IMG/VR virus record: IMGVR_UViG_3300031261_000021
Coordinates: 1 to 46,572 of that record
Strand: one strand, 5' to 3'
Length of the DNA: 46,572 nt
Source of the DNA: a virus
Shown here: positions 1,420 to 42,521 of the stretch, piece by piece
Numbering within the stretch: position 1 is the first letter of the stretch
Layout of the letters: every line of letters starts with the position of its first letter
Made by a program: the position numbers and the translations under genes
The notes under the pieces: model-generated
Databases searched by the model: none
Seen by the model: the letters and a program-made list of their open reading frames with translations, nothing else
What the model was told of the DNA's origin: nothing

Positions 1420-2431
1420 ATATCATTGGCTCAAAATCGGAGATGATGGCGTCTTAGAAATGTATTTAGATCATCATGCTCTATCAACTTTTCGTCAATG
1501 CGAAGCTGCTTTTGAGCTTTCTATAATGGCGAATATTAAAGGCAAGCATAAGAGTTGGAATCTTGAGTTTGGAATTATGTTTCACCGAATGGTTGAAATA
1601 TTCTATATTCTGAAGAAAGAAGATCGCTTTGAACTAACAAGTTGGATTCAATTTGCAGCACATCTTTGGGATGCTTATAAGATGGACGAACAATTCTCAG
1701 AGCATAAGATGTATAGAACTCTCGGCGGATTGCTCGGATTCATGGCTATGCTAGGGCAGTATGCTAATCATTTTGCAGCGGAGATGGATAGGCTTAGAGT
1801 TATTGGTATTGAAATTACTTTTGGTAAGAATAAGGAAGTGCCGCTTGGAGATTTTTCAGTAACTCAAGATTGGGATTCGCCAGAAGCTTCAATGAATAAA
1901 GCTTGGGTGAGATGCTACCTAACAGGCCGTATAGATTTCCTAATGGACTCTGGTTCAGCAATAGGCCCGCTGGATCATAAAACAACCGCGTTTATCCGAG
2001 ATAACCCGGCTAATAGTTACGATCCTCAAGATGGTATGACTGGATATATATATGCATCGCAGCGTATTATTAAAGACAAATTCCCAGAACTTCTAAGCAC
2101 TCGTAAAGTAGATAGAATCTGGATGAATTTTGCACAAATCGCACCAGAAGCGGATGCAATGAAGCGATTTCGCAGGATTCCAATCTATAAAACGGAGTAT
2201 CAACTTGAAGAATACAGAAAAAGACAGCTTAGAACCTTTCATAAAATATATGATCTTCTCATCTTGGGTGAAAAACCCGACTGGAACACCAGTATATGTA
2301 ACAATTTTTTCCACTCCGAATGCCAGTATAGAAATCTGCATAGACAAAATACAGCCTCCTCAATGCTCCAGATACTTAATTCCGATTTCGTAGTTGGTGA
2401 AGAATGGAATCCAGAAACTTTAAAGGACTAA
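1394..2431 (+). CDS. PD-(D/E)XK nuclease, Cas4/RecB-like exonuclease
   Basis: The 345-aa protein shows the RecB-type nuclease signature: H64 (MFH), GRIDF with D181, DHKTT with D194 and K196, and a downstream YDPQDGMTGYIYA motif like the family's QxxxY. Cysteines at residue 36 and in the C-terminal SIC..SECQYRNLH resemble the Fe-S ligands of Cas4/AddB nucleases, although the last ligand appears to be histidine or absent. Phages commonly pair such an exonuclease with a Sak4 recombinase and an SSB, as here. The likely role is end resection for recombination-dependent replication. An upstream AAGGGA supports the start. Confidence 0.85.
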   Translation: MTIEELCVKYHWLKIGDDGVLEMYLDHHALSTFRQCEAAFELSIMANIKGKHKSWNLEFGIMFHRMVEIFYILKKEDRFELTSWIQFAAHLWDAYKMDEQFSEHKMYRTLGGLLGFMAMLGQYANHFAAEMDRLRVIGIEITFGKNKEVPLGDFSVTQDWDSPEASMNKAWVRCYLTGRIDFLMDSGSAIGPLDHKTTAFIRDNPANSYDPQDGMTGYIYASQRIIKDKFPELLSTRKVDRIWMNFAQIAPEADAMKRFRRIPIYKTEYQLEEYRKRQLRTFHKIYDLLILGEKPDWNTSICNNFFHSECQYRNLHRQNTASSMLQILNSDFVVGEEWNPETLKD

Positions 2432-2432
2432 T

Positions 2433-2597
2433 ATGAACAAACAACCCCGCTGTCAGCAGATGTTAGATAATCATTGCCAATGTGCAAATGATTCAGTCCC
2501 GCCCTCTTTATACTGCAAGCTACATATTGCACTAGAGGAAGGCCGAAAAGTATCATCGCTTCCATCACAGGAACCACTTAAAGTTACAGAATCCTAA
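2433..2597 (+). CDS. Small cysteine-rich protein, 54 aa
   Basis: The protein reads MNKQPRCQQML..CQC..YCKLH, so Cys7, Cys15, Cys17, Cys28 and His31 could bind one zinc. AAGGA precedes the ATG with good spacing. It lies between the nuclease and the Sak4 genes in the same operon. No named family is recognised. Confidence 0.65.
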   Translation: MNKQPRCQQMLDNHCQCANDSVPPSLYCKLHIALEEGRKVSSLPSQEPLKVTES

Positions 2598-2606
2598 AGG
2601 AAAACT

Positions 2607-3398
2607 ATGCCATACGAAAATATAAGTGGACTGCTCGACTTAGACGCTGAGCAGAAGTATAAAATCGCGATCGTGGGAGAGCCTAAAACTGGAAAAAGCT
2701 GGCTCGCTATGAGTGCGCCGGGTAAAGTATTTGTATGTGATTTCGATTCTCGCTCAGAATCAATTCGTGAATATATCCGAGTATCTAAACGTAAGGATGA
2801 AATAGATGCTAAAACTTATTGGGATTTTAATCCTAGCATTCCTGTCGCTGTATCTACATTGGAAGCTGATATCTCGATGTTCGAGTATAGCAAGCAGCAA
2901 GGAAAAAGCATACCTGATTGGTTTATACTCGACTCTATCACTTTCTTACGTGCTGCTTGTGAGCATGAGTTAATTAAACAGCACCCAACAATGAGCCGCA
3001 CTATTAAACTAGGCTCTAATCAATTAAAGATTCCTCAAGGCTGGGACATTGTAAATGGCAACAAAGCTTACTTGGAATATCTCATTGGTCGCCTCTCTGA
3101 GCTTGGAAATGTTATCGCAGTTTTTCACGAGCTTGACGAGACCGACAAGCAACGCTCCACTAAGGACGAGAAGAAATACACAGGTAGACGCACTATACAA
3201 CCACAGTACCTTTCAAGTCTGCTTAGTATTTTTAATGATATTTTTCGTATTACAATTGATTATAGCGGCACTCGCTTAGTACAGGTACAACCGACAACAG
3301 AATTTTTAGCTAGTACTAGCATGAGTGCTTTGGCCCCACAAGAAACAGCTGATCTAGCCAAAATGATTGCAAAACAAAAAAAGGCTTCCAATGTCTGA
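2607..3398 (+). CDS. Sak4-type RecA-like ATPase (single-strand annealing/recombination)
   Basis: This 263-aa protein has one compact RecA-fold ATPase domain: Walker A GEPKTGKS at 24-31, the CDFDSR strand at 44-49, and a Walker B-like WFILDS at 105-110. This matches the AAA_24/Sak4 group of phage recombinases, which load on SSB-coated DNA and anneal homologous strands. It lies between the PD-(D/E)XK nuclease and the SSB-like gene, the usual Sak4 context. AAGGA lies 5' of the ATG. The stop overlaps the start of an HNH pseudogene. Confidence 0.85.
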   Translation: MPYENISGLLDLDAEQKYKIAIVGEPKTGKSWLAMSAPGKVFVCDFDSRSESIREYIRVSKRKDEIDAKTYWDFNPSIPVAVSTLEADISMFEYSKQQGKSIPDWFILDSITFLRAACEHELIKQHPTMSRTIKLGSNQLKIPQGWDIVNGNKAYLEYLIGRLSELGNVIAVFHELDETDKQRSTKDEKKYTGRRTIQPQYLSSLLSIFNDIFRITIDYSGTRLVQVQPTTEFLASTSMSALAPQETADLAKMIAKQKKASNV

Positions 3399-3852
3399 TA
3401 TTTGTAAAAAAGGTCATTTACTTATTCCGAGTAATATCTTAATTAGCTGGGCTAGAGATAGAATCACACCAACAATAAGATGTCGAGAATGTAGAAGAAT
3501 TGCATCCGAAAAATAAAGTCGTAAACGTGGTATTTTAAAAAGAGGTACTATAGAATACAAGAAAGCTTTATTTGAAAAGCACGTAGCTAAAACAAGTACT
3601 TGTTGGATTTTTACAGGCTACACAGATACCAAAGGGTATGGTCGTGTAGGTAATCCAGATTTTCAAAGTTTATCAATGGCTCATAGATATGCTTATGAGT
3701 TATATAAAGAACCAATCCCAGAGGGTTTGCAGATAGATCATATTTGCGAGAATAAAAGTTGTGTTAATCCAGAGCACTTGCAGCCAGTTACAAATCTAGA
3801 GAACCAACGCTTATACTGGGAACGTAGGCAAGTAGATTTAAAACTTAAATAA
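3391..3852 (+). pseudogene. HNH homing endonuclease interrupted by an in-frame TAA
   Basis: One frame reads from ATG 3391 to TAA 3850, broken only by a TAA at 3514-3516. The first 41 codons give a zinc-binding start (CKKGH..CRECRRIASEK). The rest gives CWIFTG..GYGRV..MAHRYAYELYKEPIPEG..IDHICENKSCVNPEHLQPVT, a typical HNH_3 core. Homologues usually have an arginine/tyrosine-rich stretch at the break, so TAA probably came from TAT or TAC. Other genes here end in TAA, so recoding is unlikely. A C-terminal fragment could start at ATG 3677 and keep the HNH residues. The gene looks like a homing element inserted into the recombination operon. Confidence 0.88.
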
Positions 3853-3882
3853 AAACTAAAAAACTAAAAGGACAAACTAATC

Positions 3883-4383
3883 ATGGCTTTTCAGATGAAA
3901 GTATCTAATAGCAAAATCGAAGGTCAAGAAGTCATCCCGCCTCAAGTATACGAACTCAAGCTTGTTGCATTTAATCCTAAGCAGTCGAAGAACGGCGGCT
4001 CGGTAAATTTGAATCCTATTCTCGAAGTAGTATCCCCAGTAGAATACGCTGGGCGTAAAGTATTTGATACCTTAAATACCGGAGGCGCTTGGACTTATCC
4101 TGATTTCTGTCATGCATTTGGGCTCCCGATGGAAACAGATGGTAATGATTCTTGGCTCCCCGGTCAGTGGGATGGAGATCCGACTAAGTTTAAGGAAGAT
4201 GATGCTTCGACTTGGGTTTATAAAGGACCGCTTGTTGGACGTACTGCAAAGGTAGAAGTTGCAGTTGATAATTATAACGGCCGGGATAATAATAAGGTCC
4301 GGCGTTATTTCTGCGCTGTGCCGGATTGCGCAACGAAATTCCCAAAAATCAGACACAGTGAAGATTTGTTGAAGAAGTCGTAA
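3883..4383 (+). CDS. SSB-like protein (DUF669-type)
   Basis: The 166-aa product has an OB-fold-like layout: a long charged strand start (VYELKLVAFNPKQSKNGGSVNLNPILEVV), GRKVFDTLNTGG, a middle helix, then LVGRTAKVEVAVDNYNGRDNNKVRRYF. This fits phage proteins of the DUF669 kind that accompany Sak4 recombinases and serve as single-strand DNA binding proteins. AAGGAC precedes the ATG. The assignment rests on the pattern and the neighbourhood. Confidence 0.65.
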   Translation: MAFQMKVSNSKIEGQEVIPPQVYELKLVAFNPKQSKNGGSVNLNPILEVVSPVEYAGRKVFDTLNTGGAWTYPDFCHAFGLPMETDGNDSWLPGQWDGDPTKFKEDDASTWVYKGPLVGRTAKVEVAVDNYNGRDNNKVRRYFCAVPDCATKFPKIRHSEDLLKKS

Positions 4384-4896: not shown

Positions 4897-4984
4897 AGAA
4901 CCAAAACTTCAACTTCTAGCAGAAGCTACTCCTAAAATTAAAACTAAGAAAGTAAAAAATGCCTTACATTCACAGCAAAGGTAG
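4889..4984 (+). CDS. Possible 31-aa basic peptide
   Basis: This short frame starts at an ATG overlapping the end of the zinc-ribbon gene and ends inside the exonuclease gene. It is lysine-rich (TPKIKTKKVKN). No clear ribosome site is visible, so it may only be a chance frame that bridges translation to the next gene. Confidence 0.25.
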   Translation: MNKEPKLQLLAEATPKIKTKKVKNALHSQQR

Positions 4985-6068
4985 CATTACATCGCCAGTT
5001 TGGGTTATTTTAGACACCCCTTATGCGGGAGATATCGCAAAGGGGTATCTTTTTTCATCTGGCTATGGATATGTTTTCGACCAGATGATGAAGGATGCTG
5101 GATTTAATGATTATTATGTAACATGCTATCGGCCTGATACAGATCATAAGGATGCTTATAGGAATATAGAAGGTGAGTTAAATCAATATAAACCTCCGAT
5201 TATAATCTTGCTCGGTGCTGTAAGCCAGCATCTACTACCACAACTTAAATTAACTACACGCAAGAAGAACTATAATCCAGACAAAGATTCTGCTATATCA
5301 AAATGGGCTGGTTCATTATGCACGAGTGATAGATTGCACTATCCCCATTATATAGTTCCAACCTTTACACCAGAAGATATTACTAAGCAATGGAAACAAC
5401 GAGATATAGTAGTAAGTTGTGATCTGGCTAAAGCACAAGCGGAATTAGAATATTGGCAAAAGCATGGCGTGCTTAATCCGCTGCCAGTTATAGATGCCAA
5501 GATAGATTTTGAGTTTGATGAGCTTCTTTTTATCCTTAAAGAAATGATGCACGCGGAGTGGGTGTCGAATGATATCGAAACAATTTATCCTAAAAAGCCA
5601 ACTAAAACTCAACCTTCGCAGTTTTATAAGATTCTTCCGGGCTACCCTATTACTATTGGTCTTGCTACCTCTAATACTGCTGGAATTTCTTTTGAACTTT
5701 TTCGTGAATCTAATACCGAAAGCGTGGAATTATGGAAAACTCTGGCGAAGTTGCTCAAAAATGTTAGAAGTGTTGGACAGAATTTTTTCAATTTTGACGC
5801 GAATTTTTATGAAATGCTCGGATTCATTTTACCGTTAGCAGACTGCCGCGATACTATGATTTTGCATCATCAATTATGGCCGGAGCTTCAGCACAAACTT
5901 CAATTTCTAGCTCGGCAATATACTCGTCACCCCTATTGGAAAGACGAAGCAGCCGGCTGGAGTTTAAAGCATATGAGAGAAATGAAAACATATAATGTCA
6001 AAGATGTTTGTGTAACTTTGGAAATTTTTCATTGTGAGATAGCTGAATTAAAATCTAGAGGTCTCTAG
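4959..6068 (+). CDS. UDG-like domain fused to 3'-5' exonuclease; proofreading half of a split PolA
   Basis: The 369-aa protein has two domains. Residues about 10-150 resemble a family 4-like uracil-DNA glycosylase fold (VWVILDTPYAGD.., PPIIILLGAVSQHLL), but the usual GExPG catalytic motif reads LDTPY, so it may be inactive. Residues about 175-369 form a DnaQ-like exonuclease with Exo I D205/E207 (NDIET), Exo II N275/D280 (GQNFFNFD) and Exo III Y345/D349 (YNVKD). The protein ends where a family A polymerase domain would normally begin; that domain is encoded separately at 7736. The UDG-exo arrangement is known as the N-terminal part of some phage PolA proteins. Confidence 0.85.
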   Translation: MPYIHSKGSITSPVWVILDTPYAGDIAKGYLFSSGYGYVFDQMMKDAGFNDYYVTCYRPDTDHKDAYRNIEGELNQYKPPIIILLGAVSQHLLPQLKLTTRKKNYNPDKDSAISKWAGSLCTSDRLHYPHYIVPTFTPEDITKQWKQRDIVVSCDLAKAQAELEYWQKHGVLNPLPVIDAKIDFEFDELLFILKEMMHAEWVSNDIETIYPKKPTKTQPSQFYKILPGYPITIGLATSNTAGISFELFRESNTESVELWKTLAKLLKNVRSVGQNFFNFDANFYEMLGFILPLADCRDTMILHHQLWPELQHKLQFLARQYTRHPYWKDEAAGWSLKHMREMKTYNVKDVCVTLEIFHCEIAELKSRGL

Positions 6069-7735: not shown

Positions 7736-9292
7736 ATGCAAGAACGAATTACATCACAGTATTTACACTCACTTCAAGCGGTATATCACAAGATCGATAG
7801 TCGTGGCATATCTGTCGATATAGGGAGATTGAAAGATGCATCTGCATATATTGATTCAGATATTACTAAGCAGTGCGGTATTGTTAGTAACATTTGGGGT
7901 GTGTCTTGCTATATTGGAAGCGGCAACAAGCCCATTGCTTCAAATATTCCGGGGTCCATTACTGCTAGTATTAACCTTAATAGCAGCTCTGGTTCTAATA
8001 CTCCTCTGGAACAATTAAAGCGGATGGGATTTAAAATCCCTAAAGTATCTGCACGAGATGAAGATGGAAATTATATCCAGAAGGAGTCTTTGAATGAACT
8101 CGTACTTCAAAAGATGTATGCGACGAATCAATTTAATACGATCGGTGGCGATCCTGCAATTCGCGCTATACTTCGTATTCGTGAGTTGGGTACACTTAGA
8201 ACGAGGTACATTAATGCTAACCTTATCAAGCGTGGAGAATTGGCTATATTTTTATCTAACTATAACTGCGCTGGTACCGTTACTGGCCGCAGGGGAAGTA
8301 GAAAGCACTCTTTTGGATATGGTGGAAATGCACAGAACTTCCCAAAACACGGAGAACTCGCTAAAGTCTTCCGACGTTGCTTAGTGGCTCGACCCGGCAA
8401 AATTCTATTAATGGTCGATCAGATGCAAGCAGAAGATTGGCCTACAAGTGCACTTGCAAATAACCACGAGGCATTAGATGATCTTATTAAAGGTATTGAT
8501 CGTCACCGTAAGTTGGGTTGTCTTATCTTTGATATCCCTTGGGATCACTATACTGACAGTGAATGGAAAGAATCTATTGAAAGATTTCTCGGTAAAAAGA
8601 CTCGTCATGCTAATAATTATGGTATGCGAGGGAACACTATGTCTGATTCTTTGGCTAAAGAAGGTTATTCATTAACTCCAATCCAATGTCAAAATATTTT
8701 AGATAAAGTCAACCAAGTTGATCCTTCTGTAGATAAAGTATTCCATCGTTATATAAAGGACTGTCTAGATGCTAATCGAACACTCAGAACACCTTTCGGT
8801 AGAGAACGAATTTTCTTTGGACTTAGACCCGGAGAAGCAGGAAGTAATAATAAAATTTTCAATGAAGCATATAGCTACATACCGCAATCTGTCGTGGGTG
8901 ACAACACAGGATTTGCCGTTCATAGACTTGAGACCGGAGATGAATCTACGAGGGGAGCTATCATACAAGAAGGCCATGATAGCATTGTTCAGGAACTTGA
9001 TGATAATGTTGATTCGATCTGGTTATACTTGCAAGCAACTAGAAGGGCTTTTGAAAGAAGAATTGAATTCCATAACGGTATCGATGTTAGAATTCCCGTC
9101 GAAGGTGAAATCGGATTCGACTTCTATCATACACAAACATTCAAATCCAAACGAACAGGAACTAAAAAGTTAGACGATTTAGATTACCAAGACGTGCAAG
9201 CCGCTTACTATAAGTTAAAAGAACACCAAGAGAAAGAGCTTCAAAAAGATGGCGCAACGGAAATTAAACACGAACTGGATCTCAGCATATAG
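7736..9292 (+). CDS. polA: Family A DNA polymerase, polymerase domain only
   Basis: The 518-aa protein lacks any exonuclease domain and starts where the PolA palm/thumb domain begins. TGR (near 183) and NAQNFP are typical template-binding motifs. Motif A is VDQMQAEDW with catalytic D228 and E233; the usual terminal Arg is Trp235. Motif B is RFLGKKTRHANNYGM, aligning R283, K287, H291 and Y295 with E. coli R754, K758, F762 and Y766, so His replaces Phe762. Motif C is GHDS (D415) instead of HDE. Catalytic aspartates are intact. Proofreading presumably comes from the protein at 4959. AGGAG precedes the ATG. Confidence 0.93.
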   Translation: MQERITSQYLHSLQAVYHKIDSRGISVDIGRLKDASAYIDSDITKQCGIVSNIWGVSCYIGSGNKPIASNIPGSITASINLNSSSGSNTPLEQLKRMGFKIPKVSARDEDGNYIQKESLNELVLQKMYATNQFNTIGGDPAIRAILRIRELGTLRTRYINANLIKRGELAIFLSNYNCAGTVTGRRGSRKHSFGYGGNAQNFPKHGELAKVFRRCLVARPGKILLMVDQMQAEDWPTSALANNHEALDDLIKGIDRHRKLGCLIFDIPWDHYTDSEWKESIERFLGKKTRHANNYGMRGNTMSDSLAKEGYSLTPIQCQNILDKVNQVDPSVDKVFHRYIKDCLDANRTLRTPFGRERIFFGLRPGEAGSNNKIFNEAYSYIPQSVVGDNTGFAVHRLETGDESTRGAIIQEGHDSIVQELDDNVDSIWLYLQATRRAFERRIEFHNGIDVRIPVEGEIGFDFYHTQTFKSKRTGTKKLDDLDYQDVQAAYYKLKEHQEKELQKDGATEIKHELDLSI

Positions 9293-10505
9293 CGCCATAA
9301 TGGGGCCTATCACTGAAGCTCCAGATTCCTACGTTGTCTGGAGTGCTATCTCGGTAATAAGTGCGATTCTTAAAAAGAAAGTGTGGATTCGACGTGGAAC
9401 GTATAAGGTGTATCCCAATCAATATATTGTGCTTGTTGGCCCACCGGGAGTTGGTAAAGGTACTGCGATCCACCCAGCCCATAGTTTTATTAAAGACTAC
9501 AAACCGGAATTATCAAACTATTTATCAGATCGTATTACTGCGCCAAAAATCATCGAAAAACTTGCAAATGGGTTCCAGACCCAAAGCATTATTGCAGGAA
9601 ATATTATCGTCTCGAAGGAATCAACAGCCATACTCATGGCATCTGAACTTTCCACATTTTTAGGTAGTAGCGATTGGATGACATCATTCCTTTGTGACAC
9701 ATGGGATAGAAATGAGTTTGAATATGACACTAAGAATAAAGGCTCATCGCATATTAAAGATATGTGCGTTAGTCTTATCGGTGCTTGCGTACCAGATTTC
9801 ATTCGGAAGATTAACGGTAAACAATCTAATGCATCCGAAGCGATTAATGGAGGCTTTACAGCAAGAACAATGTTTGTTTTTGCTAATGCGAAGTCCAAGA
9901 AGTTGGCCTGGCCAGTTGCTCTTGAGGATATCAAACATGTTGCTGCTTGTGGCGGCAAAACCGGACGTGAAGTGATAGCTGATTTACGCTATGATCTAGA
10001 ACAAATAGCTAACGTAAAGGGCGAATTTACATTCAGCCAAGATGCTATAACAATCTTCCAACAATGGTACCATGCACAAAAGCACGAGGATACAGATTCA
10101 GATGTAGTACGACATTTTAAATCACGTCAAGATGTACATATATTTAAAGTAGCAATGTGCTTAGCAGCAGCTTCTGGGGATTCTTTAGAGATAAGCGATT
10201 GGTGTATGAACACCGCAATTACTCTAGTTAAGGGAGTACTTGATACTCTCGATATTACATTCAGGGGAGTGGGTGAATCTACGTTAAGTGAAGCAACCGC
10301 TAAAATTCAAACATATATAGAGCGCAAAGGTCTAGCAACACGTCGCGAACTCATACGTGATAATCATCGACACGCGACCCTAGAAGATATCGAACGTATA
10401 ACTAGAACCCTTGAAGTATGTGGCTTCATTAAGTGTTTTAGTCAAAATGGACAGCAATTTTATGAGTACAATAATACGGTAAAGAAAGGTATAAAGATCC
10501 CATGA
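9249..10505 (+). CDS. DUF3987-type ATPase, probable replicative helicase/primase-helicase
   Basis: The 418-aa protein has Walker A VGPPGVGKGT near 63-72, a downstream DTWDR..EF segment, and VSLIGACVPDFI, as in DUF3987 proteins. Its C-terminal third (ATAKIQTYIERKGLATRRELIRDNHRHATLEDIERITRTLEVCGFI) reads as a winged-helix domain. In phages this family usually sits beside polymerase and is treated as a replication helicase. It overlaps the end of polA by 44 bp, so the two are translationally coupled. Confidence 0.75.
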   Translation: MAQRKLNTNWISAYSAIMGPITEAPDSYVVWSAISVISAILKKKVWIRRGTYKVYPNQYIVLVGPPGVGKGTAIHPAHSFIKDYKPELSNYLSDRITAPKIIEKLANGFQTQSIIAGNIIVSKESTAILMASELSTFLGSSDWMTSFLCDTWDRNEFEYDTKNKGSSHIKDMCVSLIGACVPDFIRKINGKQSNASEAINGGFTARTMFVFANAKSKKLAWPVALEDIKHVAACGGKTGREVIADLRYDLEQIANVKGEFTFSQDAITIFQQWYHAQKHEDTDSDVVRHFKSRQDVHIFKVAMCLAAASGDSLEISDWCMNTAITLVKGVLDTLDITFRGVGESTLSEATAKIQTYIERKGLATRRELIRDNHRHATLEDIERITRTLEVCGFIKCFSQNGQQFYEYNNTVKKGIKIP

Positions 10506-10783
10506 ATATATTAATATCATTTATTTTAATGTTGCAGATAAGTAACACGGTACCTAAAATACCGTTTAATGATAATGAAGATGTAGAACCGCAACATAAA
10601 AATTGCTCCGCGCAGTTAGATTGTGATTTTAACAGCTATAAATATTTAGAATGCCCGGTAAATTATTATTTACGTAAACGTTTAGCCGGAGATAAGTGGG
10701 TATGGGTTTGCAGGAAAAAAATTCCAATTATCGTAAACTGTCCTGTAAATGAGCCTTGTACAATACCAACAATTGATAATTAG
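10502..10783 (+). CDS. Small exported cysteine-rich protein, 93 aa
   Basis: The start overlaps the helicase stop (ATGA). A short hydrophobic N-terminus (MNILISFILMLQISNTV) is likely a signal peptide or anchor. The remainder holds six cysteines (CSAQLDCDF, ECPV, VWVCR, VNCPVNEPC), consistent with disulphides in the periplasm. No family was recognised. Confidence 0.6.
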   Translation: MNILISFILMLQISNTVPKIPFNDNEDVEPQHKNCSAQLDCDFNSYKYLECPVNYYLRKRLAGDKWVWVCRKKIPIIVNCPVNEPCTIPTIDN

Positions 10784-10793
10784 AGGAGCCGCA

Positions 10794-11381
10794 ATGAACA
10801 CAATTGAAAGCGCACAGCAAGAATTAATTGATCGTCCACTTAATGAACTAGAAACATCTAAAGACGTAGAAAACGTAATCTTCATCGTAGGAGGCAAGCT
10901 TGGACTTGAAGCTATTGGAAACAAGATACTCATACTTATCGACAAGTTTAAAAGCGGATATGAGTGCAAAGATTGTAACGAGACAGGAATATATATTGCG
11001 TGTGAATGTACTCGACGTGGTACGTTCGGATTTAAAGAAAGCGGTAAAACATGCCATTATCGAGAAGCGTGCGCACGGCAGATCGTGGGAGAGACTTGCA
11101 AAACTTGCAATGGAACTGGAAGCACCCTTAAAATTCCCGAAACCGCCAGAGCAATTCCAACCTCTGGAGTCATTGTGTCGGTAGGTCCAGAAACTACTAA
11201 GCGCAAGATAGGAGAACGAGTACTATTCGGTGCTCATACTGGATATTTTCTTCCATTCAAAGGCAACGCCAAAATCCGTTGCATGCGCGAAGACGAACCA
11301 CTTTGCATTATCTATGCAGTTGACACCAAAGAACAACTTGGTGAGTTCCTACAAATAGACGAGAGTGCATCTATTGATTAA
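10794..11381 (+). CDS. GroES-like co-chaperonin with a DnaJ-type zinc finger inserted at the mobile loop
   Basis: The start at 10794 is chosen over an upstream frame because AGAGGAG precedes it; the product is 195 aa. Residues about 41-54 (IGNKILILIDKFKS) match the first GroES strand. Residues 113-178 (KIPETARAIPTSGVIVSVG..IGERVLFGAHTGYFLPFKG..EDEPLCIIYAVD) match the rest of a GroES barrel. Between them, where GroES has the mobile loop that touches GroEL, lie C58/C61 (CKDCNETG), C70/C72, C87/C93 and C102/C105 (CKTCNGTG). This gives eight cysteines arranged like a DnaJ zinc domain. It may adapt host GroEL or act as a stand-alone holdase. It is the last gene before the terminator. Confidence 0.8.
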   Translation: MNTIESAQQELIDRPLNELETSKDVENVIFIVGGKLGLEAIGNKILILIDKFKSGYECKDCNETGIYIACECTRRGTFGFKESGKTCHYREACARQIVGETCKTCNGTGSTLKIPETARAIPTSGVIVSVGPETTKRKIGERVLFGAHTGYFLPFKGNAKIRCMREDEPLCIIYAVDTKEQLGEFLQIDESASID

Positions 11382-11402
11382 TTAAATATAATTTAAACAC
11401 AA

Positions 11403-11437
11403 ATGCCCTACTCTTAATTGAGTAGGGCATTTTTTAT
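11403..11437 (+). terminator. Intrinsic terminator ending the left operon
   Basis: ATGCCCTACTC pairs perfectly with GAGTAGGGCAT around TTAATT (11403-11430), followed by a T-rich run. It lies just after the GroES-like gene, where the plus and minus transcription blocks converge. In the minus direction the downstream tract is weaker. Confidence 0.9.
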
Positions 11438-15008: not shown

Positions 15009-15372
15009 AAGCACTCCAATTAATTCCCATCTCAAGCGCCAAAGCGCGTTCCATCCTAGTAGCTGTCTGATGCTGGACATAATATGGAGCTTGTGGATCA
15101 TCTCCAGGCTCGGAAGTAAAATCATCTTCCGCACGTTCACGCTCATATTGCTTATCAAATTCAGTAACATCTCGTTCTTTAATCCCAGCTTTAAGACAGA
15201 GCATAGCTTCTATTTGCTCGTGGTAAGCAATTAGGAATTCGTATAGTGGATTACCCAAATTTGATACAAATATGAATAAAGTTTGTGGATGTTCTTCATT
15301 ATCAAAATACCAATCCCCAACAGTCTCATACCGTTGAGATTCATGCGGAATAGTTCTAATATAAATATTCAT
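14983..15372 (-). CDS. HExxE-containing small protein, possibly zincin-like
   Basis: The 129-aa product has LIAYHEQIEAMLCLKAGI, with H-E-x-x-E in a helix. This resembles the metal-binding helix of minimal zincin-like proteins, and the following FDKQYERERAEDD and QTATRMERALALEMGI segments are well ordered. The ATG (15370-15372) overlaps the ATP-grasp stop (TGATG), so the two are coupled. Whether it cuts peptides is unknown; a third metal ligand is not certain. Confidence 0.65.
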   Translation of the reverse strand: MNIYIRTIPHESQRYETVGDWYFDNEEHPQTLFIFVSNLGNPLYEFLIAYHEQIEAMLCLKAGIKERDVTEFDKQYERERAEDDFTSEPGDDPQAPYYVQHQTATRMERALALEMGINWSAYEEAVYSL

Positions 15373-16646
15373 CAAAGCAGCCCCAAGTGTGACAGTTCGT
15401 TATAACGTTTAGTTGTCGTCTTTTCGAGATCGGTGCGAATTTGCATGTTAGATATTTTGATCCTATCTACTTTATCATCTATCCTATCCCAAGCTTCTGA
15501 TATCGATCTACCATAAGCAAGTGGGCAACATAGAAATCCAGAATGTCCAGCAGTTACTAGATGCTTTTTATCCAGCTGCAAATCATACATATATGTAGTT
15601 ATATAGTCTTCTTTTTCTATACCTTTAACTTCGATTCCTTGTGGATGCTTACCCTTAATTTCAGTTGGGTATGGGGGAATACTTAAACGTACTGAAGCTC
15701 CGAATTCCCCTTTCCAACTATCATCAGGTACTCGTCCAGTAGCTATTTTTTCAAATAGCTCGCCCATATTTCCACCGTACATGTTCAGCAAAGTTGCTGA
15801 AGCATCATATCCAAAACGTGGTGTCCATTCAAGACCGAATAATCCTTGCTCCGTTGCAATAGTATTAAGATCAATCATTCCAGTATAACCGATCTTTTGA
15901 AGATATGGCTTCATTTTCTCAAGACCTTGTTTATAAAGCTCCGCCGATTCACGAAGATAGAATACTAGATTTCCAGCACATCCAGTATTTGGTCCGTGAT
16001 TATCATTCATGAATTTCTTCTCTTCTAAAGTTACATTAACAAGATAAAAATCCTCACCATTAAACCAACCTTCAACACTTACTTCTGTTCCTTTTATAAA
16101 CTCCTGCAGTACAAAAGGTGCTGATTTTGTCTTAGCAAATAGTTTGTCGATATTAGCCAACATATCTTCTGGACTTGAGGCAACATATGTTGTATCTGTG
16201 TCATTATCTTGGCCGCCATCAGGCTTGTATACAAAACGTTTATTGCTTTTTCGTACATATTCCTTTCCGGCGCCAACATCTGTAAATCGTTCGTACGGAG
16301 GAACTTTAATTCCGCATTCTTCCATAGCCTCAAGCCCGAACATTCTATCATCTTCAACAGCACAATTAAAAGCGCCATCCCCAATAGTAGGACAACAAGA
16401 AGCACTATATTCAGCTTGTCTCTGTCGCCCTGTAAGATCAAATATAGATACATCATACTTAGAATAATTCGGAAAACTTCTATCCCCTTTAACTCGCACA
16501 AAAGGAGTTGGTACTATGCCTTTAAGAATATCTTCATAATCAGGTTCGCTTAGATAATAATCTACCTTATGCCCCTCCTCAAGCAAGCGTAAGGTAAACC
16601 AAGCTCCATAACCGGTGTAACTAGATAATGCAATCTTAAGCGGCAT
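15372..16646 (-). CDS. PurD-like ATP-grasp ligase
   Basis: The 424-aa protein starts with a Rossmann-like N-terminus (KIALSSYTGYGAWFTLRLLEEGHKVDYYLSE). An ATP-grasp core follows: FVYKPDGGQDND, VLQEFIKGTEVSVEGWFNGE, then LEEKKFMNDNHGPNTGCAGN, which matches the GPNTGGMG signature of phosphoribosylamine-glycine ligase, and later GMIDLNTI..LEWTPRFGYD. PurD makes an amide bond in purine synthesis. Here, among late fibre genes with no other purine gene, the substrate may be different, such as a peptide, a nucleotide or a virion protein. AAGGAAAGG precedes the ATG. Confidence 0.8.
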   Translation of the reverse strand: MPLKIALSSYTGYGAWFTLRLLEEGHKVDYYLSEPDYEDILKGIVPTPFVRVKGDRSFPNYSKYDVSIFDLTGRQRQAEYSASCCPTIGDGAFNCAVEDDRMFGLEAMEECGIKVPPYERFTDVGAGKEYVRKSNKRFVYKPDGGQDNDTDTTYVASSPEDMLANIDKLFAKTKSAPFVLQEFIKGTEVSVEGWFNGEDFYLVNVTLEEKKFMNDNHGPNTGCAGNLVFYLRESAELYKQGLEKMKPYLQKIGYTGMIDLNTIATEQGLFGLEWTPRFGYDASATLLNMYGGNMGELFEKIATGRVPDDSWKGEFGASVRLSIPPYPTEIKGKHPQGIEVKGIEKEDYITTYMYDLQLDKKHLVTAGHSGFLCCPLAYGRSISEAWDRIDDKVDRIKISNMQIRTDLEKTTTKRYNELSHLGLL

Positions 16647-28344: not shown

Positions 28345-29304
28345 TTACGCACCGTTGCTGCCCCAAGTACCGAGCCAATCTGATGCACCGGCAGACATAC
28401 GCATGGTAGTCTTCTGTTTCATAGCGCCAGTGTCGAAATCTTCATCAAACTCATCTTCTGGATTCTGCCGCATGAATACAGTGAGAGAGTTATTCTTTTT
28501 ACCTGCTAGTACAAACCAAGGACCAGCGTTTGTAAGATAATGACCAACCATATAGCTCAGATCTTCTCCGAGCAACGAGTTAATATCATTAGTATCCGTA
28601 GCTGGCTTACCACTGCTTCCGAATAGTTCGCGTGCGAGGAATCTATTCTCAGGAGCAATAAGTACAATCTCAGGCTTCAAATTAATCGGCAAACCCTGAG
28701 AATCAACCAAACGTTCAAACTGTGTAGTTGCAAGCTGTACACCAGTAAAGGACAAATCAATATCAGTAGCTGGCCGATTCGGAAAAGTACCAGCAGCACT
28801 GATAAGATTCGGCAGCGAAGCCCAAGTATTTGTTGAACTAACACCACCAAGTTGTGGATGCTGGTTGTTAAACAACGATACACCATCCGAAGTGGTTACG
28901 TTATTGCTAAAACCTTGATTAAAGATATTAAAAGCAATAATTTCCTTCGTATACCTAATCGACCTAGCCAATGCCTTTGGAGCCTGCTTAATAACTCCGT
29001 ACTTAGCATCCTGCCAAAGTTCCTTAGAAGTACGAACGGCGAGTGCATAAGTAAGATGAATATATCTTTTATCGCCACCCTGAATCATTTGTGTATACGC
29101 AACAGGCGTATTTTCTGGCTTTTCCTGAAGCGGCCCAAATCCGGCCATCTTCAAGTCCTGCTCGTACTCCGAAGTAGAAGTTTTTACATTAAAAATAGCC
29201 TGATACTCTTCAGCACGCTGTTCCGTCTCAAGTGCATCGACATAAATTTTATGCAACCCCGGAGCCATAAGTTTGGGGAATGCTCCACGTACTTGTGTAG
29301 ACAT
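28345..29304 (-). CDS. Major capsid protein (Mu gpT-like)
   Basis: The 319-aa product has the gpT-type pattern: KIYVDALETEQRAEEYQAIFNVKTSTSEYEQDLKMAGFG split here, then RYTKEIIAFNIFNQGFSNN, DGVSLFNNQHPQLGG, PEIVLIAPENRFLARELFGS and GPWFVLAGK. These match the HK97-fold Mu-like major head subunit. It sits after the head assembly genes in the late operon. Confidence 0.85.
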   Translation of the reverse strand: MSTQVRGAFPKLMAPGLHKIYVDALETEQRAEEYQAIFNVKTSTSEYEQDLKMAGFGPLQEKPENTPVAYTQMIQGGDKRYIHLTYALAVRTSKELWQDAKYGVIKQAPKALARSIRYTKEIIAFNIFNQGFSNNVTTSDGVSLFNNQHPQLGGVSSTNTWASLPNLISAAGTFPNRPATDIDLSFTGVQLATTQFERLVDSQGLPINLKPEIVLIAPENRFLARELFGSSGKPATDTNDINSLLGEDLSYMVGHYLTNAGPWFVLAGKKNNSLTVFMRQNPEDEFDEDFDTGAMKQKTTMRMSAGASDWLGTWGSNGA

Positions 29305-41746: not shown

Positions 41747-41923
41747 ATGAGTGAAGGTATAGATCGCGCGTTAATTCAACAAGAAGAATCAGCTTTCGAA
41801 GATAGAACTAACTGGGCGTATTGCGATGTTTGTGATAATTATATGGAAGATTGTATTTGTGATCAGGAAATAGATGATTTGCCGCCACTGCGAAATCCTG
41901 ATGTTACAATGGTCTGGTGGTAG
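41747..41923 (+). CDS. Small acidic zinc-binding protein, 58 aa
   Basis: The frame opens at 41726, but AAGGAGGT before ATG 41747 fixes the start. The product contains WAYCDVCDNYMEDCICDQE, a four-cysteine zinc knuckle, and is acidic. Its 3' end overlaps the J-domain gene by 50 bp. Confidence 0.65.
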   Translation: MSEGIDRALIQQEESAFEDRTNWAYCDVCDNYMEDCICDQEIDDLPPLRNPDVTMVWW

Positions 41924-42521
41924 TTATATATGTCCTATATGTAAAATGTGGCTAATACCTAAACCGAAAGAGAGCTTAGATGTGCCAAAGCTAACATACG
42001 AACTAACACATAATAATACAATCGTAGCGATAAAATTCCATTCAATCGCATCTAAAGGCTGGTGGAAAGAAAATGTACAGCCAGCATTAGATTTTAGTAA
42101 AGCTTTTGTACCAGCTACAATGCGCTCTTATAATCCCAATAATTTTATATGGGAATTCGCAATTGAATACTGGCCAGCGTTGAAAACCGCATATGAAACT
42201 GGGTTTAAATTTACTTGCACCGAAGGCAAAGTATCTCCAGAATCCAACGACCCACTTAAAAATGTAAAAGTAGATGATTCTTATAAAGAGAACTTTTACC
42301 ACAAACAAGAGGTTGTAAAAACAGTAGAGAGTGCATCTTCGATCGCAGAAAAGCTTTCGACATATCTCGAAGTTAAAATAACAACTCAAGATATTAGTGA
42401 GCTTAAGAAACTATATCGTGCAAAAGCCCGCGAACTACATCCAGATATGGGCGGAGATGCCTCGAAGATGAGCGAGCTTAATAGATTGTGGACGTTGTAC
42501 ACAGCAGGAGGTATAAATTGA
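41874..42521 (+). CDS. Zinc-ribbon J-domain protein (DnaJ-like co-chaperone)
   Basis: The 215-aa protein starts with a zinc ribbon (C3/C6 CRHC, C20/C23 CPIC) and ends in a J domain (ISELKKLYRAKARELHPDMGGDASKMSELNRLW) with HPD at 189-191. A J domain stimulates DnaK ATPase, so it could recruit host Hsp70 to a phage target. The middle part is unassigned. A second chaperone-type gene, the zinc-finger GroES-like protein, is at 10794. Confidence 0.8.
   Translation: MICRHCEILMLQWSGGSYICPICKMWLIPKPKESLDVPKLTYELTHNNTIVAIKFHSIASKGWWKENVQPALDFSKAFVPATMRSYNPNNFIWEFAIEYWPALKTAYETGFKFTCTEGKVSPESNDPLKNVKVDDSYKENFYHKQEVVKTVESASSIAEKLSTYLEVKITTQDISELKKLYRAKARELHPDMGGDASKMSELNRLWTLYTAGGIN

Follow-up and report, generated by a model that had tools for sequence, protein, structure and literature searches.

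A phage GroES-like protein with a predicted DnaJ/BSD2-type zinc module in its mobile loop

The DNA analyzed here, called the window throughout, is a stretch of 46,572 bases from a virus contig that encodes terminase, portal, capsid, family A DNA polymerase, and DUF3987 primase/helicase genes. On its plus strand, positions 10,794 to 11,381 contain a gene for a GroES-like co-chaperonin with a predicted zinc insert (Zn-GroES), whose product has 195 amino acids and a mass of 21.5 kDa. A GAGGAG Shine-Dalgarno sequence, read from the sequence at 10,783 to 10,788 (plus strand), lies 5 nt ahead of the ATG at 10,794, and an alternative ATG further upstream at 10,749 is a less likely start. A strong intrinsic terminator is found at 11,401 to 11,432 (plus strand), where the replication and structural operons converge, and the promoter scan returned no promoter-like sites above shuffles. 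In comparisons with relatives, where synonymous sites are near saturation, the barrel portion of the protein is under strong purifying selection (pN 0.12 to 0.22 versus pS 0.79 to 0.91), and the zinc insert evolves faster than the barrel (pN 0.22 to 0.45). The open reading frame is confirmed as real and protein-coding. Directly 5' of it is a 93-amino acid open reading frame (10,502 to 10,783, plus strand) that overlaps the end of the DUF3987 gene; its product begins with a signal-like hydrophobic stretch and contains several cysteines but has no family match.

Profile, fold, and loop motif all place the window protein in the Cpn10/GroES family. It scores 21.7 bits against the Pfam Cpn10 model (PF00166, cutoff 21.1) over residues 106 to 168, and its relatives score 30 to 40 bits (maximum 39.9), with some close relatives falling under the cutoff. 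The family profile aligns with the GroES profile in hhalign at an E value of about 1e-15 over 70 columns. An AlphaFold model built with 29 family sequences contains a GroES beta-barrel with pLDDT of about 85 to 96, and in a Foldseek search of the PDB every match at E ≤ 0.001 is a GroES/Cpn10 structure, T4 gp31 (1g31) among them; the match to 1p3h has a TM score of 0.67 by target length and a Foldseek probability of 1.00. Named matches in a viral structure library are mostly phage co-chaperonins. The C-terminal GroES barrel, which an earlier note had read from the letters of the window, is thereby supported by Pfam, hhalign, Foldseek, and alignment alike, at residues 110 to 178 (11,121 to 11,327, plus strand). 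It has a short roof loop, like other phage GroES, and the overall similarity of the window protein to E. coli GroES is low.

The N-terminal barrel part, which includes strand 1, precedes the insert at residues 36 to 55 (10,899 to 10,958, plus strand) and is placed by the AlphaFold model and alignment. The same note had assigned IGNKILILIDKF to the first GroES strand, and here sequence and structure give different answers. The N-terminal family profile alone did not find GroES above decoys, leaving strand 1 undetected by sequence, and joining the outer profile columns without the insert, a comparison the note had proposed along with structure prediction, brought no gain over the C-terminal part alone. 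In the model, strand 1 corresponds to residues 44 to 49, with a mean pLDDT of 95 for residues 41 to 50, and the Foldseek alignments cover whole GroES chains with a gap of about 50 residues. The predicted fold thus contains the barrel, and the cysteine block sits within the barrel chain, not as a separate domain outside of it.

This insert of about 50 residues is flanked by strand 1 on one side and by the latter half of the mobile loop on the other. It begins in the GroES mobile-loop region and stops just ahead of the equivalents of GroES I25-V26-L27. By positional equivalence and the family table, the counterpart of this GroEL-contacting IVL tripeptide is L112-K113-I114 (11,127 to 11,135, plus strand), in which the middle residue is Lys. 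I114 is 11 residues from the conserved Gly, the same distance as from L27 to G38 in GroES. The L27-equivalent is I, L, V, or M in 42 of the 47 family proteins; the remaining five comprise two anchor misplacements and three proteins with A or T at this site and hydrophobic residues just before it. GroES L27A cannot bind GroEL (PMC3514286). Since the tripeptide is kept at the GroES spacing, the insert appears to add to the docking loop and not to replace its business end. The cysteines had been described as standing where GroES carries its GroEL-binding loop, which is correct for the N-terminal half of the loop and too broad for the loop as a whole. The same retention bears on whether the protein alters the use of host GroEL or acts without GroEL, both of which had been proposed, and makes action with host GroEL the likelier of the two.

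The insert proper spans residues 58 to 105 (10,965 to 11,108, plus strand). Its eight cysteines fall into four pairs, as the earlier note had it, consisting of an outer set (C58, C61, C102, and C105) and an inner set (C70, C72, C87, and C93). Pairs one and four are CxxC (CKDCNETG and CKTCNGTG), the two that had been likened to CxxCxGxG, and the inner pairs are CxC and C-x5-C. At the phage cysteine frequency of 0.97%, eight cysteines in 50 residues have a binomial probability of about 3e-8, calculated for one stretch. Close relatives keep all eight, with the third pair shifting somewhat. Among 48 distinct proteins the insert contains 8 or 9 cysteines in 41, 4 in 6, and 12 in 1. The outer CxxC pairs are invariant in the family, while the inner four cysteines are lost or gained as a set. 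In a quick tree built without the insert columns, in which some forks are open, all Zn-GroES proteins group together (SH-aLRT 98), separately from three plain GroES sequences, and a switch from four to eight cysteines or back occurs at least 6 times by an approximate count. The outer cysteine set of DnaJ is Zn1 (PMC8262869), and loss of the inner four with retention of the outer four is the outcome expected of two structural metal sites, one lying within the other in the manner of DnaJ.

Profile and model comparisons were made with the DnaJ central domain. Against PF00684 (cutoff 32.7) the window protein scores 10.2 bits, the better relatives score 22 to 32, and the best (L133) scores 32.4, so that no family member scanned reaches the cutoff. 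In the window protein the insert is modeled at low confidence (pLDDT 54 to 66), and a relative with both sites, L027, gives a model with a mean pLDDT of 85 and insert block means of 81 to 95 over most of its length. The zinc part of L027 matches BSD2 (6ekb) with a Foldseek probability of 1.00, a TM score of 0.67 by target length, 33% identity, and an E value of 0.026; it also resembles Ydj1 and DnaJA2, more weakly than BSD2. A DnaJ-type assignment is therefore borderline for the window protein taken by itself, at 10 bits, and is sustained for the family by the scores of its better members, the structural matches, and the cysteine layout. We describe the insert as a predicted DnaJ/BSD2-type zinc module with an obligatory outer site and an optional inner site, in which zinc would presumably occupy the cysteine sites. 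A Pfam search found no J domain with HPD in the window GroES-like protein. On this count, and because the PF00684 cutoff is not reached, it does not qualify as a DnaJ. By sequence the sites of its insert are laid out as in DnaJ, and in L027 the modeled insert has the DnaJ/BSD2 fold. Two kinds of variant were seen elsewhere in the family. In addition to the mobile-loop block, L060 (5001-5672) and L133 (2980-3771) carry a second group of four cysteines at the position of the GroES roof hairpin. The mobile-loop insert of L038 (4902-5625) has 12 cysteines in six CxxC pairs; its gene is cut by one contig end, and a Cpn10 C-terminal piece lies at the other.

Set beside known systems, the window protein shares with GroES/Cpn10 the barrel, the mobile-loop position, the tripeptide 11 residues from Gly, and the conserved C-terminal motif, but differs in its eight-cysteine module of about 50 residues before the tripeptide, its short roof loop, and its N-terminal extension. 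With T4 gp31 it has in common a phage-encoded GroES fold without a long roof loop and a presumed host GroEL partner; we know of no zinc module in gp31. The gp31 loop is simply longer, a flexible segment of 22 residues (PMC6318259). The central domain of type I DnaJ (PF00684) has the same four cysteine pairs and the same layout of outer Zn1 and inner Zn2, with CxxCxGxG-like motifs in many members of our family, whereas every family member scanned scores under the PF00684 cutoff, the protein itself lacks a J domain, and the inner site has often been lost. The best structural match of the L027 zinc insert, 6ekb, belongs to the BSD2/ZnJ2 Rubisco assembly factors. BSD2 is a free-standing DnaJ-like zinc domain linked to the folding and assembly of a chaperonin-dependent protein, but it is a separate plant and algal protein and not part of a chaperonin lid.

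About 47 relatives of Zn-GroES were found, all on IMG/VR contigs and from many metagenomes. Two pattern-based, non-exhaustive scans of 84,980 species genomes gave no relative, and neither did 50,697 phage records and plasmids, where the matches were to the GroES half only or to unrelated multi-CxxC proteins. The whole architecture is covered by no family model in PHROGs, Pfam, or NCBIfam, and no published description of a zinc-finger GroES was found in the open-licence literature, in agreement with the earlier note, which knew of no co-chaperonin of this build. Three simpler origins for the reading frame were considered. A free-standing zinc finger with a chance GroES-like tail is rejected because the insert lies inside one conserved chain in all relatives. 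A chimeric or misassembled reading frame is rejected on account of the roughly 47 distinct homologs in many metagenomes and their conserved synteny. Derivation from a host gene is unsupported, with no relative in the pattern-based, non-exhaustive cellular genome scans, in plasmids, or in isolate phages.

The location of the gene differs between two clades. In the clade of the window (clade 1) Zn-GroES closes the replication operon behind UDG/exonuclease, polymerase A, and DUF3987, in that sequence; convergent tail-fibre-like genes follow, and this order is kept even where the GroES proteins are only 22 to 36% identical. The DUF3987 primase/helicase-like gene, at 9,249 to 10,505 (plus strand) in the window, is a near upstream neighbor in clade-1 relatives. 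In clade 2 the Zn-GroES gene is upstream of the genes for TerL and portal on the same strand, in 17 of 17 loci tested, and terminase and portal are homologous between the two clades. No Cpn60/GroEL gene was found among 21 phage contigs. Wherever Cpn10 was detected there is a single GroES-type gene per phage, the two matches in G019 being at the two contig ends. Other features of these genomes were noted in passing. The family A DNA polymerase of the window is divided between two genes (4,959 to 6,068 and 7,736 to 9,292, plus strand) with several small genes between them. One product joins a UDG-like part to a 3'-5' exonuclease, the other is the polymerase on its own, and the split is kept in relatives. 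An ATP-grasp protein resembling phosphoribosylglycinamide synthetase (PurD) is encoded among the tail-side genes (15,372 to 16,646, minus strand), with 44 to 76% identity in relatives. In L033 (about 1829-4216) the match to the terminase large subunit is interrupted for about 700 bases, perhaps by an intron, an intein, or an inserted gene.

A possible functional partner is encoded elsewhere in the window. The gene at 41,874 to 42,521 (plus strand) specifies a protein of 215 amino acids with an N-terminal zinc ribbon, a middle part with a YNP...W...YWP motif, and a C-terminal J-domain match that includes HPD. It is conserved in almost every related phage of clade 1. J-domain matches are present in 16 of the 23 Zn-GroES phage records first searched, among them all 13 contigs of at least 44 kb outside clade 2, and HPD is present in all 16 loci read; two further clade-1 records with a match were added later. 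Neither the longer clade-2 contigs (49, 50, and 48 kb) nor plain-GroES phage records gave such a match. These J-domain proteins are mutual BLAST homologs with that of the window, the weakest at an E value of 0.003 in a database of 16. In L147 the match (G012:C1:16800-16940) spans two in-frame TAG codons, possibly through recoding or a frameshift, and an open HPD-bearing frame is present in the same locus. Co-conservation of Zn-GroES and the J-domain protein among related phages makes the latter a possible partner and is no proof of interaction. Phage RB43 supplies a known case of a phage J-domain protein that acts on host DnaK, Rki (PMC3486835). Rki has a functional J domain, and the comparison with the window protein concerns that domain; the Rki phages are T4-like. 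The two genes could constitute a split DnaJ, in which the J-domain protein recruits host DnaK, the zinc finger of DnaJ type has been transferred to the lid of GroEL, and phage clients pass straight from DnaK to GroEL. We consider such a relay unlikely. If it were true, Hsp70 would be physically coupled to the chaperonin under a dedicated lid, and to our knowledge no physical coupling of this kind is known in cells.

We expect that the protein is a lid for host GroEL, and we regard this part of the interpretation as likely, since it is favored by the tripeptide, the GroES-type fold, the single GroES gene, the lack of Cpn60 in the 21 contigs, and the precedent of gp31, which replaces GroES on GroEL, has no roof loops, and folds the T4 capsid protein gp23 (PMC6318259). 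The barrel, the insert position, the cysteine sets, and the tripeptide have support from sequence or model, and sequence likewise supports the head-module location in one clade and the finding that the contigs encode no phage GroEL. Seven copies would form the lid, displace host GroES, and cap host GroEL by way of the retained hydrophobic tripeptide. The host chaperonin would then fold proteins of the phage, with those of the virion (capsid or portal, for example) as the most probable clients, an idea favored by the position of the clade-2 gene upstream of TerL and portal and by the role of gp31 in T4 capsid folding. Each mobile loop would carry a DnaJ/BSD2-type zinc module in its N-terminal half, most likely providing an extra binding surface at the junction of lid and chaperonin that captures or holds clients as DnaJ Zn1 and BSD2 do. 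In DnaJ, unfolded substrates are bound and held by the zinc domain (PMC8262869), and BSD2 assists Rubisco assembly (PMC5780408). That holding clients is the main job of the module we propose tentatively. The reading as a whole, a gp31-like lid on host GroEL whose zinc module mainly captures or holds clients, has in our judgment about an even chance of being right. Counting against it, the clade-1 gene is located with replication genes and not head genes, the tripeptide has Lys in the middle, and the window insert is modeled at low pLDDT. The major capsid protein, a candidate client (28,345 to 29,304, minus strand; 319 amino acids), is only 35 kDa, so a special lid is not obviously needed for it. 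If the zinc module faces outward in the GroEL complex, contact with a client within the cage is impossible.

An alternative keeps the lid on host GroEL but has the zinc module serve docking instead of clients, by stiffening or extending the mobile loop, adding a contact to the GroEL apical domain, or raising the dome. Such a lid could outcompete host GroES, match a particular host GroEL, or enlarge the cage in the way of the longer gp31 loop. The module is indeed placed in the loop that docks on GroEL, and its faster evolution relative to the barrel is what a host-specificity element might show. The gp31 loop has 22 residues versus 16 in GroES, and the gp31 cage is 8% larger (PMC6318259). A capsid protein of 35.2 kDa does not obviously require a larger cage, however, and its small size disfavors cage enlargement as the reason for the module. 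A structured module of about 50 residues also exceeds the needs of mere loop lengthening, and the DnaJ/BSD2 domain type is otherwise known for client binding. We view docking as a possible but doubtful main role.

The protein could also have left GroEL altogether, with the barrel repurposed as a zinc-stabilized ring, or as an adaptor, that serves replication or the assembly of virions. This would suit the clade-1 gene in its replication operon, the Lys in the tripeptide, and the low overall similarity to E. coli GroES, but nearly all relatives have a hydrophobic tripeptide at the exact GroES spacing, the gene is the sole GroES-type gene in each phage, and gp31 is equally divergent (14% identity) and still a co-chaperonin (PMC6318259), which makes repurposing quite improbable. 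The idea that the cysteine module works as a switch, operated by redox state or zinc, that turns the lid on or off under oxidative stress by a logic like that of Hsp33 earns very little credence from us. DnaJ-type zinc centers can have oxidoreductase activity (PMC8262869), but the change of cysteines by fours around an invariant outer site is the pattern of structural metal sites, and no regulatory feature was seen.

As far as we know, the GroEL-docking loop differs little in architecture from one co-chaperonin to another. Here a whole virus lineage has a predicted DnaJ/BSD2-type zinc domain in that loop, with putative metal sites gained and lost in full sets and, in two relatives, an apparent second module at the roof. 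The family is a natural series of one, two, and three predicted zinc sites with which the tolerance of the mobile loop can be tested, and it offers a possible link between the Hsp70 system and the chaperonin system. The architecture suggests that a chaperonin lid can acquire accessory domains by which clients or chaperonins are chosen.
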